Below are positions 45,105-49,006 of a DNA stretch of 64,000 nt, piece by piece. The notes under the pieces are model-generated. The model did not search any database and was not told where the DNA came from. It worked only from the letters and a program-made list of their open reading frames with translations. Source of the stretch: Fidelibacterota bacterium. GTDB lineage: Bacteria > Fidelibacterota > Marinisomatia > SCGC-AAA003-L08 > TS1B11. Each line of letters begins with the position of its first letter. The first letter of the stretch is position 1. The position numbers and the translations under genes were made by a program. The stretch is taken from NCBI GenBank assembly GCA_020354025.1, contig CP070638.1, forward strand, positions 3,129,984-3,193,983. The letters are read 5' to 3'.

Positions 45105-45782
45105 TTACCATATGTGAGCCGAGGCTACTACCCGCCCAATAATGAAGATTTCGGTTCCCAATTCCTTGCTGCTGACGGTAAATGGTGGATAGACAGTACC
45201 GTTTTCGCTGAACACCTGGATAAGACCGCCAGGCAGGTGCTGCACGTATTTAACCAGCAGTTCATCCTCGATGCGGATGACGTAGGCTTTGCCGCTGACG
45301 ATTTCAGTCTGGCTTAGATCTATCAAGACAAAATCGCCTTCGCGCAGGACTTTTTCCATAGAGTCACCTATCACATCCACTAAGGCCAGATTCTTCGAAT
45401 TCAGACCCCTTTCGTTGATCCAATCCCTTCTAAAGGCCACCGAGCCAACTACATCTTCGCCAACAACGAAGGTGCCGTGTCCTGCACCGACCCGGACATC
45501 ATAGCGGTTTACCAGCACCAGTTCCTGGTCTTCAGGCCGGGATAGCTCGGTGCGGAACATCCCGCCATCCCCGGTAAGCAGCCATGTTATGTTAAATCCC
45601 AGTTTATCCAGTGCGCCTACGACGCTGGATGGTAGATCGGCTCGTCCGCGCTCGTAATTGGCGATGTCATAACGCTTGAGACCAAAACGGGCAGCAAAGG
45701 TAGTCTGAGTTTCTCCCAGGTGGGTTCTAATGTATCTCAGGCGACTGCCCATTCTGGCGTGTTTATTAGTTGTAGTGACCAT
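45105..45782 (-). CDS. Phage-type repressor, HTH_XRE plus S24 LexA-like peptidase
   Basis: A 225-residue cI/LexA-type regulator. Residues about 17-66 are an XRE helix-turn-helix (LRYIRTHLGETQTTFAARFG). Residues about 100-220 are an S24 serine-lysine peptidase with Ser141 (VIGDSMEKVLREGD) and Lys178 (LLVKYV). A plausible self-cleavage Ala-Gly lies at 100-101 (VGAGHGTF). All catalytic residues are present, so RecA-stimulated self-cleavage and SOS induction are likely. It is divergent from the DUF3164 gene, with palindromes between them (45800-46006) that are candidate operators. Confidence 0.9.
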   Translation of the reverse strand: MVTTTNKHARMGSRLRYIRTHLGETQTTFAARFGLKRYDIANYERGRADLPSSVVGALDKLGFNITWLLTGDGGMFRTELSRPEDQELVLVNRYDVRVGAGHGTFVVGEDVVGSVAFRRDWINERGLNSKNLALVDVIGDSMEKVLREGDFVLIDLSQTEIVSGKAYVIRIEDELLVKYVQHLPGGLIQVFSENGTVYPPFTVSSKELGTEIFIIGRVVASAHIW

Positions 45783-46061
45783 TTCTCCTATTGCAATGAG
45801 TAATTATTACACATTACATTATCACTGGGAAAAGGTGGCATGAAACCTTCCAACAGACTTATCCAACCGGACACTTTCCTATTTTCTTTCGATAGAGAAG
45901 TATGTCTATTCCCAATATTTAGAGACAGTGCCACTGTCGGATATGCCAGCGAAGCTCCTGCCGATCGCATAATAAAACCGAATCAACGTTACCACTCGAA
46001 GGTAACAATCTGAATCGTCTGCTTCAATCCAAAAATGCAGAATCAAGGAAAAGGAGTCATT
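45783..46061. promoter_or_regulatory. Divergent control region with palindromes
   Basis: Between the repressor and DUF3164 genes lie three dyads: GTAATTATTAC (45800-45810), GACAGTG-C-CACTGTC (45924-45938, 15 bp, perfect), and GTTACC-N7-GGTAAC (45988-46006). They differ in sequence, so at most one or two are sites for the repressor. The 45924 dyad is central in the interval and the best operator candidate. Confidence 0.55.
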
Positions 46062-46775
46062 ATGACACAATCAGGTCAACAACGTAGGACAGCAGCTAGA
46101 AGTACATCGCGAGGGGTGCTGAAATCCACTGTAGATCGCCAGGGCAGTTGGATTGATGGACAAGGCCGGGCTGTACCTCCCCGGTATATTGATCCGGTGG
46201 TGAAAGCGCGGGATCGACTGGTGCGTCGCATTGCATCCAAGACGCAGCGCCTCCATGAGCAGATGTCGGTGGTGAAGGCAGAGGTGCTGGCCCTGGTGGA
46301 CGAATACCTGGCCCAGGTGGCGGCCGGGTATGACGAGAACTGGAAAGGCAACGCCGAGCTGGTCACCTTCGACGGACGGCTGAAGGTTGAGGTGAAAATT
46401 AGCGAGGCGCTGGAGTTCGATGAGCGGTTACAGCTGGCCAAACAGAAGATTGACCACTGCCTTCGCAGCTGGACCGGCAACGCCCGCGCAGAGGTGCGTG
46501 CTATCATCAACCAAGCCTTCCAGGTGGACAGTAAAGGGCGCATCAACATACGCTCCATACTCACGCTGAGGCAGCTCAAGTTCGACGATCCGGTTTGGAG
46601 CGAGGGTATGGCTCTCATTGCCGACAGCCTCCGTATCCGCACTACCCGTCGCTACGTGAATGTGTACCAAAGACACACTAGCACGGACCGCTTTGAGCTA
46701 CTGGCGCTTAACTGGAGTGCGCTGGGGGGAGTTGAAATCAAGGAAAGAGACAATGGCGATAACAGTGGGCAATAG
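46062..46775 (+). CDS. DUF3164-family protein, Mu-like phage early gene
   Basis: A 237-residue protein from ATG 46062, chosen for AAGGAG 7 nt upstream (the frame is open to 46035). The DUF3164 core is visible: SWIDGQGRAVPPRYIDPVVK near residue 33, a helical middle (VKARDRLVRRIASKTQRLHE) and the conserved KVEVKISEALEFDERLQ and IRTTRRYVNVYQR segments. DUF3164 genes are typical of the early region of Mu-like transposable phages; the function is unknown. It is followed after 63 nt by an excisionase-type HTH gene. No transposase A or B gene is near. Confidence 0.85.
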   Translation: MTQSGQQRRTAARSTSRGVLKSTVDRQGSWIDGQGRAVPPRYIDPVVKARDRLVRRIASKTQRLHEQMSVVKAEVLALVDEYLAQVAAGYDENWKGNAELVTFDGRLKVEVKISEALEFDERLQLAKQKIDHCLRSWTGNARAEVRAIINQAFQVDSKGRINIRSILTLRQLKFDDPVWSEGMALIADSLRIRTTRRYVNVYQRHTSTDRFELLALNWSALGGVEIKERDNGDNSGQ

Positions 46776-46838
46776 CACGAGTCTGTTGATCGGTGCTGGC
46801 GTTATGAATAGTGAAAAGACAAGCGAGCAGGGAGCGAT

Positions 46839-47060
46839 ATGGAGGACAACGACGGTTTCAACCTGATGATCGAGATGATCAACCGGCAGCGGCTGTATCG
46901 AACCGGGGAGGTGGCCGCTCTGATGGGTTGCTCGGTGCGCTACGTGCAGCTGCTGGTGGAGCTGGGTCATCTGGAGGCACTGCGGATGGGACGGATAATC
47001 CGCATCCCCGGTCTCTCACTGGTGCGCTTCATCGAGAAACACAAGGAGTGGGATGGGTGA
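46839..47060 (+). CDS. Excisionase/MerR-type helix-turn-helix protein
   Basis: A 73-residue single-domain DNA-binding protein. The winged HTH of the excisionase (HTH_17) type is complete: LYRTGEVAALMGCSVRYVQL for the helix-turn-helix, then the wing (LEALRMGRIIRIPGLSLVRFI). The start ATG 46839 is preceded by a weak GGGAG. It is the third gene of the phage-like module and could direct excision or regulate the early genes. Confidence 0.85.
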   Translation: MEDNDGFNLMIEMINRQRLYRTGEVAALMGCSVRYVQLLVELGHLEALRMGRIIRIPGLSLVRFIEKHKEWDG

Positions 47061-47607: not shown

Positions 47608-47990
47608 AATCAAGAAGGGGGTGTAGGACAATTCAATGCACTGGACTCCGAGACAGTCACTGGTACGGCCGGGGGAATAGTCTTTGAGGCTAGTGGTCCG
47701 GATACGCACTGCTGCGCCGGACAAGTCAGTTGTTAGGATTCAGCCCGATTGCTGCTGCTGAATCCCGCTCCTAGTCCTTCAGGAAGCGAGACTAAAGACG
47801 GGGCACCGTCGAGAAAACGGAAAAAGCATCAGAACCGGTTGCATGGCACTCCCCGGTATGCATTTAACGGACTGACAACAGACCAGGTATCTGGCCGTTA
47901 GTCCAGGATCCGATCCCTCCTCAAACGAAGTAGGCTTGATTAGGCCGATTCCTGTGTTAAATTGCGGCACGGGTTGTATCCAATAACTAA
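47608..47990. other. Gene-free stretch before the 48 kb RNA
   Basis: About 380 bases without a credible gene on either strand. A 63-codon minus-strand frame at 47779-47970 lacks a ribosome binding site. The promoter of the RNA at 47991-48123 should lie here, but no clear consensus is visible. Confidence 0.35.
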
Positions 47991-48007
47991 CGAAAGGAGG
48001 TGGTCCA

Positions 48008-48052
48008 TTGTCTAGTAAACATTGGGCGCTGGCCTCCGCTGGTGCGCTTTAG
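48008..48052 (+). CDS. 14-codon ORF behind an extended Shine-Dalgarno
   Basis: TTG 48008 to TAG 48052, encoding MSSKHWALASAGAL. The ribosome binding site is unusually long. Whether the peptide matters or only the ribosome binding is unknown. Confidence 0.4.
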   Translation: MSSKHWALASAGAL

Positions 48053-48086
48053 AGGCATTCGGCGCGCCAGCCGCCCAGCCTAAGCT

Positions 48087-48123
48087 GAAGCCCCCGGGCC
48101 TGTGCCGGGGGCTTCTTCGTTTA
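48087..48123 (+). terminator. Strong rho-independent terminator
   Basis: An 11-bp perfect stem GAAGCCCCCGG/CCGGGGGCTTC with loop GCCTGTG and tail TTCGTTTA. Confidence 0.85.
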
Positions 48124-48232
48124 TGGCCTGTGGTCCGTCTACGCTTCGCTGCGCCGGACTAGTAAGCAATCAATTGTCCGAGGTCCGTGATCAATCTCCA
48201 GCTCCAAATCCCAAGTCCCCAAACGATCCTCG

Positions 48233-49006
48233 CTAGGAGCCATGCCCTTCACCCTCCCCGGCCATTATCTCGTGGGCGAGGTCGCGGTAGTCGCGGGCGC
48301 CTGTGCATTGACTGTCGTAGAGGGTGATGGGCTGGCCTTGTGAGGGTGCTTCGGCCAGGCGGACATTCTCCCGGATTTCCACTTTGAATACGAGGTCGCC
48401 GAAGCGGCTGCGCAGTTCCTGTACTATGTTCTTGGAGTGACGGGTCCGGGAATCCACGCGGCAAGCCAGGATGCCGGTGATCCGCAGTTCGGGATTCAGG
48501 TGGTTCCTGAGACTCTCCACTGAGGTGATGACCCGATCCACACTAGGCAAGGCTAGGTGGTGGGCTTCTATAGGGATCAGCACTTCCTCGACGCCGATCA
48601 GGGCGTTGGCTGTCAGGATGCCCAGGGCTGGGGGACAATCCACGATCAGGTAATCCCATTGGCCGTGTGGGAGGGACGTCATGGTCTTACTGAAGATCTG
48701 CACCGTACCCACTTCCCAGGACAGAACCTTTTCGGCGCCGAGGAGCCAGGTAGAGGCCGGCACCAGGTTTACGCCCATTACGGCGGTCGGACGTACCAGT
48801 TCTACCAGGGAACGAACGCTGATGAATATATCGGCAATACCCCGGCCGGCATCCTTAATACCAAACCAATTGGTGGCCGTTCCCTGGGGGTCCATATCCA
48901 CCACCAGCACCCGCCGCCCGTACTCCGCTATGGCTGCCGAGAGGCTGACGGTTGTGGTGGTCTTGCCGCTGCCGCCTTTCTGATTGAAAACCGCGATGCT
49001 TCTCAC
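48233..49006 (-). CDS. ParA/Soj-family ATPase, orphan
   Basis: A 257-residue deviant-Walker ATPase. KGGSGKTT is at 10-17 (with the signature Lys10), the switch VDMDPQGTATNWFG follows, and Walker B is LIVDCPPALGILT. ParA proteins form dynamic gradients that segregate DNA or position large cargo, normally with ParB. No parB gene or parS-like site is visible nearby, so this is an orphan, either a cargo-positioning type or one acting with a distant ParB. The start ATG 49006 lacks a strong ribosome binding site. It is convergent with the putative RNA. Confidence 0.9.
   Translation of the reverse strand: MRSIAVFNQKGGSGKTTTTVSLSAAIAEYGRRVLVVDMDPQGTATNWFGIKDAGRGIADIFISVRSLVELVRPTAVMGVNLVPASTWLLGAEKVLSWEVGTVQIFSKTMTSLPHGQWDYLIVDCPPALGILTANALIGVEEVLIPIEAHHLALPSVDRVITSVESLRNHLNPELRITGILACRVDSRTRHSKNIVQELRSRFGDLVFKVEIRENVRLAEAPSQGQPITLYDSQCTGARDYRDLAHEIMAGEGEGHGS

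Follow-up and report, generated by a model that had tools for sequence, protein, structure and literature searches.

The window analysed here, a stretch of 64,000 nucleotides from a Fidelibacterota genome, contains an isolated transcription unit whose elements are listed in Table 1. The free-standing RNA has a length of roughly 150 bases, and its transcription is expected to start near 47970, downstream of the putative promoter; in the family alignment, the relative G005 carries TTGACC at the position of the −35-like sequence. The Shine-Dalgarno (SD) sequence is of unusual extent. The perfect complement AAAGGAGGTGGTCC at 47993-48006 is lengthened by the G at 47992 to 15 nt of pairing with the universal 16S tail GGAUCACCUCCUUUC, which bears out the claim of a previous sequence-only reading that this segment is a 15-nt complement of the 16S rRNA 3′ end. 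The GGAGG core occupies 47996-48000, with a spacing of 7 nt to the start codon at 48008. At zero mismatches, AAAGGAGGTGRTCC occurred only once in the window, and AAGGAGGTGRTCC had a single exact occurrence in the entire 3.4 Mb genome. The sole 16S match in this single-contig genome (L010 8151-8650; G000:C1, about 2516150-2516649) corresponds to the first third and ends at model position 546, adjoining a run of 100 N; the rRNA gene is therefore broken by an assembly gap. Because the gap removes the 3′ end of the organism's 16S, the pairing was scored against the universal GGAUCACCUCCUUU(C) tail.

Table 1. Predicted elements of the RNA locus in the window
Feature	Position	Strand	Detail and basis
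Isolated transcription unit	47936-48123	+	promoter-like site, SD, mini-ORF, covarying hairpin, terminator
−35-like TTGATT	47936-47941	+	putative promoter, from sequence; 16 nt ahead of −10
−10-like TAAATT	47958-47963	+	putative promoter; kept in family alignment
Maximal SD GAAAGGAGGTGGTCC	47992-48006	+	complement of 16S 3′ tail, 15 nt, one G-U
14-codon ORF MSSKHWALASAGAL	48008-48052	+	translation; TTG start, TAG stop 48050-48052; length kept among relatives
SD-complementary CCTCC	48033-48037	+	codons 9-10; nucleotide-level invariance; place relative to stop
Conserved hairpin, stop codon in apical part	48024-48076	+	48024-48033/48066-48076 and 48037-48045/48055-48064; covariation
Intrinsic terminator	48087-48123	+	hairpin 48087-48115 and T-rich tail; terminator prediction, covariation

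The 14-codon ORF runs into the conserved hairpin, and the fold of the window RNA beats its own shuffles with a z of −3.7. No same-strand gene lies downstream of the RNA; the next gene, encoding ParA (48233-49006, minus strand), is convergent with it. This confirmed the earlier description of a self-contained RNA that carries a ribosome-binding site, a mini-ORF, a hairpin and a terminator and has no downstream gene on its strand. Cis-regulation of parA was rejected because of this orientation. A tRNA/tmRNA search of the window gave no match. A hairpin-forming repeat, GGTCCGNNTACGCNNNGCTGCGCCGGAC, is found on either side of the element at 47695-47722 and 48132-48159, 437 bases apart, with no further copy in the window. 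Just upstream, at 45105-47060, there is a phage-like remnant, with an S24-type repressor gene on the minus strand; its plus strand encodes a DUF3164 protein and a small HTH_17 protein. A phage origin of the RNA was considered and rejected, since the 22-nt box described below was present in just 7 of 2.9 million viral contigs.

Conservation and distribution of the RNA

A BLAST search with the region identified copies in 6 sister genomes, all from the same family. The family alignment displays an invariant SD core and also TTGTCT, CCTCC at codons 9-10 and the terminator; the TAAATT −10-like box was kept, and some members have a TTGA-like −35 sequence. The genes on either side vary among the 7 family genomes, which have no common neighbors around this stand-alone unit; what is conserved is therefore the RNA and not an operon. 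The seven copies were used to build a covariance model (R1), which was improved with two distant matches (R2). With a threshold of E < 1e-7, about 38 of the 171 class genomes, spread over five families, each yielded a single full-length copy, and the conserved downstream genes across the class are mostly convergent. Three congeners and one further family member (G001, G002, G003 and G010; the congener G003 is 96% complete) had no detectable copy, so the RNA is not indispensable. In the f13 relatives L253, L257, L261, L262, L267, L268 and L271, GGGGG replaces GGAGG in the SD core and pairs with CCUCC via one G-U.

In the 41-sequence alignment A7, both sides had changed in 28 of the 31 stem pairs of the hairpin and terminator. 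The covariation score was 0.446; shuffled alignments gave 0.176, with 0 of 500 reaching the real value, and sliding the helices gave no more than 0.111. This alignment was fitted to the model and thus leans toward the structure. A structure-free MAFFT alignment of seven sequences gave a score of 0.375 versus 0.235 (0 of 500 shuffles) with 11 pairs changed on both sides; as related sequences are not independent, these shuffle counts are not probabilities. The sequence-only reading had proposed conservation of the SD stretch and the hairpin in relatives as a test, and both were conserved. By this comparative evidence, the window locus is a real, conserved RNA and not a chance arrangement.

The 22-nt box GAAAGGAGGTGRTCCANTGTCT had at least 120 matches among 84,980 species genomes, where about 0.2 chance matches are expected by estimate. 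Among the matches listed, almost all were from Alphaproteobacteria, together with one from Gemmatimonadetes and one from a Nitrospinota contig. A looser pattern was found in 36 of 150 Gemmatimonadota genomes (1 of 150 for the reversed-pattern control) and in 36 of 190 Alphaproteobacteria (2 of 190 for the control), and exactly one copy was present in 13 of 15 genomes examined whole. Since the earlier patterns demanded TGTC, the alphaproteobacterial search was repeated without the second-codon constraint. This search yielded 38 sites, 33 of which had TCN at codon 2, with TCT, TCG, TCC and TCA all represented. Because an ORF of at most 35 codons opened at 28 of the 30 such loci that were read, the 13-nt perfect SD of Alphaproteobacteria is used almost only by such mini-ORFs. 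In Azospirillum and a similar copy (L053, L082 and L094), the SD box precedes a 57-59-codon ORF whose N-terminus resembles a signal peptide (MSHGASPVVAALFGLAALLTAGIANA...), which looks like an extension of the mini-ORF into a secreted protein. In Rhodobacterales (e.g. L011, L035 and L095), the RNA is often flanked by genes for a YhhQ-like transporter and an ArfB-like ribosome-rescue protein on the same strand.

The copies of Alphaproteobacteria, Gemmatimonadota and Nitrospinota share a maximal SD, a Ser codon at position 2, an ORF of 11-35 codons, a hairpin and a terminator, and are usually single-copy. Judged from these matches, the architecture appears in at least three phyla, or four if the phylum of the window is distinct from Nitrospinota. 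Similarity outside the box and the terminator is low, and the link between the clades may be common descent or convergence on 16S pairing.

No Rfam family matched in the window at the gathering threshold. The best match of the window copy was RF01867 (caulobacter sRNA CC2171), at 36.9 bits (E 1e-6) and under the cut-off of 75, which four alphaproteobacterial copies (L140, L142, L144 and L146) passed with 75.5-91.5 bits. The two RNAs resemble each other in the 5′ box (GAAAGGAGGUGAUCCAGUGUCU in CC2171, from which GAAAGGAGGUGGUCCAUUGUCU at 47992-48013 of the window differs at two positions), the stand-alone state, the structured middle and the terminator. However, the RF01867 helix CAUUGUC:GACAAUG is unformed in the window copy, being non-pairing in the cmscan alignment, and a hairpin from codon 6 is present instead; moreover, the Rfam entry describes a caulobacter sRNA gene without an ORF or an SD-complement. 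By score and layout, the window RNA is a below-threshold relative of the CC2171-type design, and some of the alphaproteobacterial copies are CC2171. A CC2171 homologue was seen by RNA-seq in Mesorhizobium huakuii (PMC5596092). In Caulobacter, two previously predicted ncRNAs, not named in the text, are translated, and an SD is found in only 24.6% of CDSs (PMC4117421).

A homologue of the actinobacterial Ms_IGR-5 RNA (RF02471) is ribosome-protected (PMC4974804). RF02471 has GGAAGGAGGUGGUCC near the 5′ end, a hairpin and a terminator, and may be a distant analogue; it scored 19.8 bits against the window copy, below its cut-off of 45. The model had no match anywhere in the control genomes, which makes that comparison uninformative. 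Translational attenuators and leader peptides, such as those of the ermC type, trpL and the attenuator sRNA rnTrpL, consist of a short ORF over mutually exclusive helices, whose fold is set by a terminating or stalled ribosome. The window RNA has a conserved short ORF overlapping a conserved hairpin and may form alternative helices of this kind, but it has no same-strand gene to control, and neither stall codons nor a conserved peptide were recognized. The lambda bar transcripts are minigene RNAs with a tiny ORF of about 2 codons that act by peptidyl-tRNA drop-off. They resemble the present RNAs in having a tiny ORF behind a ribosome-engaging SD, whereas the RNAs described here have 11-35 codons and are structured and conserved.

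The mini-ORF and the SD-complementary segment

The length of the mini-ORF is conserved within clades: 38 of 39 ORFs of the class have 14-16 codons, 6 of 7 in the window family have 14, with all three stop codons in use, and all 28 of Rhodobacterales have 18 (stops TAG 11, TAA 9 and TGA 8). The start codon varies among ATG, GTG and TTG. Substitutions were distributed about equally over codon positions 1, 2 and 3 and were mostly non-synonymous, and codon-position patterns in the window family, Rhodobacterales and the class revealed no purifying selection at the amino-acid level. All 39 of 39 ORFs have TCC as codon 10 and either ACC or GCC as codon 9, and the third positions of codons 9-10 never change; in the 15-codon ORFs, variation within codons 8-10 is limited to the first codon position. 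The only conserved peptide stretch, L-[AT]-S, therefore results from the fixed RNA sequence CTGRCCTCC, the third positions of which are almost invariant. As judged from this pattern, codons 9-10 are held as RNA and not as protein, which is the opposite of a coding constraint. These results suggest that it is the act of translation that counts, and not the tiny peptide.

A new feature to emerge from the comparison is a predicted SD-complementary segment in every RNA, whose distance from the stop codon is fixed in each clade; it usually lies 15-30 nt ahead of the stop, within the 5′ arm of the hairpin. Relative to the stop, the best complement was located at −27 to −20 in the class (CCTCC; 30 of 39 in one 10-nt bin), −23 to −16 in Gemmatimonadota (GATCGCC), −25 to −11 in Bradyrhizobium (CACCTC and GGATCGCC), −24 in Nitrospinota and −33 to −26 in MSHC-type alphaproteobacteria. 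Rhodobacterales are an exception, with CACCTCC or CATCTCC after the stop at +48 to +54. The real SD beat all 60 permuted SDs in seven of seven groups, in zones that had been selected from these very data. In f8 and f13, two distant families, the segment is paired in a hairpin with the 3′ arm GGAGGTCAGC, which is itself SD-like. Furthermore, pairing between the ORF and the post-stop region exceeded that of shuffles in Rhodobacterales (20.5 versus 11.9), Gemmatimonadota (19.0 versus 12.0) and MSHC alphaproteobacteria (18.4 versus 11.8). A terminating ribosome has its trailing edge about as far upstream of the stop codon as the SD-complement usually lies, and the complement would sit at the exit side of the ribosome as it terminates.

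All family members could pair the SD with CCTCC, but this pairing was predicted at 0.46 and 0.41 in two of them and near zero elsewhere. The predicted stable fold in most members is the hairpin, so that closure of the SD is retained as a possibility. In ensemble folding, the predicted accessibility of the SD did not differ from that of shuffles. Occlusion of the SD as the resting state was rejected, being unsupported by ensemble folding, and a first duplex test of it was weak. Since the SD is no more hidden than in shuffles, the resting state is probably one with the SD open and the hairpin closed.

Candidate functions and a proposed translation-gated RNA

The strong, well-spaced SD would suit a small mRNA whose 14-16-residue peptide is the functional molecule, the micropeptide of the sequence-only reading. 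The retention of Ser at codon 2 through four different codons in the unbiased alphaproteobacterial sample and an L-[TA]-S-x-G-like motif across much of the class also point that way, and ORF length was kept as that reading would have it. However, the amino acids differ by clade, non-synonymous changes outnumber synonymous ones, all three codon positions change alike, and the LTS/LAS motif is accounted for by the fixed RNA; a functional peptide is thus unlikely. A second suggestion of that reading, titration of ribosomes, would require that the maximal SD hold initiating 30S subunits and thereby lower the translation of weaker mRNAs. Such a decoy is compatible with an SD that matches almost all of the free 16S tail and with a usually single-copy locus that has a strong terminator, but it needs no fixed ORF length and leaves the covarying hairpin and the conserved SD-complement unexplained, and one RNA species would have to approach ribosomes in abundance, which makes it improbable.

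The mini-ORF, alternative helices and terminator also resemble an attenuator, and copies often lie upstream of the ArfB-like gene in Rhodobacterales and in some cases upstream of RNase R in Rhizobiales, as a cis-acting leader would. The next gene is convergent or unrelated in the window and in most relatives in the class, so that control of a downstream gene is already contradicted for the window's family and is very improbable overall. A separate question, of homology and not of function, is whether selection for maximal 16S pairing produced the same 14-17 nt repeatedly in otherwise unrelated RNAs. Little sequence is common to the clades beyond the 5′ box and the terminator, and the scores against CC2171 lie under the cut-off; on the other hand, the part of the box that is independent of 16S (NTGTCT, with Ser codon 2), the ORF size, the hairpin over the stop and the single-copy state all recur, and R1 matches alphaproteobacterial and Nitrospinota copies with E of 8e-12 to 8e-10. 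Convergence is therefore a doubtful account of the cross-phylum likeness.

Based on the anatomy, conservation, covariation, conserved ORF length, lack of amino-acid selection and stand-alone position, a translation-gated RNA is favored over these rivals, and the sensing of translation is the earlier suggestion that fits the comparative evidence best. The alignments show four predicted segments in one conserved unit: the maximal SD (segment 1), the SD-complement in the mini-ORF shortly before the stop (segment 2), a post-stop 3′ arm that pairs with the 5′ arm holding segment 2 (segment 3) and the terminator (segment 4). We tentatively propose, with slightly more doubt than confidence, a free-standing switch that resembles a translational attenuator lacking its downstream gene. 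The maximal SD would load ribosomes very efficiently; a ribosome would then run a short, fixed distance, melt the hairpin and terminate inside it. On reaching the stop, it would free the 3′ arm and, at its exit side, cover or release the SD-complement. A shortage of ribosomes would let the hairpin re-form or segment 2 close the SD, and the fold would thereby report initiation capacity. We infer that translation alters the fold and that the output, acting in trans, is the exposed 3′ arm or a changed stability of the RNA; the peptide would be a probable by-product. Cryo-EM of Staphylococcus aureus has shown SD pairing extended past the canonical core, and the ribosome can therefore accommodate longer-than-usual SD helices (PMC13009471).

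It is possible, though distinctly uncertain, that the RNAs of several phyla form one class of free-standing ribosome sensors, which would combine a maximal SD, their own anti-SD-like segment at the exit side of the terminating ribosome and a translation-released 3′ arm, and in which translation of a throw-away mini-ORF would set activity in trans. The alphaproteobacterial sRNA CC2171 has a name but no assigned function, and the present comparison indicates that this RNA is probably more than a plain non-coding one, with an anatomy tuned to the ribosome. If the proposal is true, cells would maintain a dedicated single-copy RNA that reads initiation capacity via the 16S tail.
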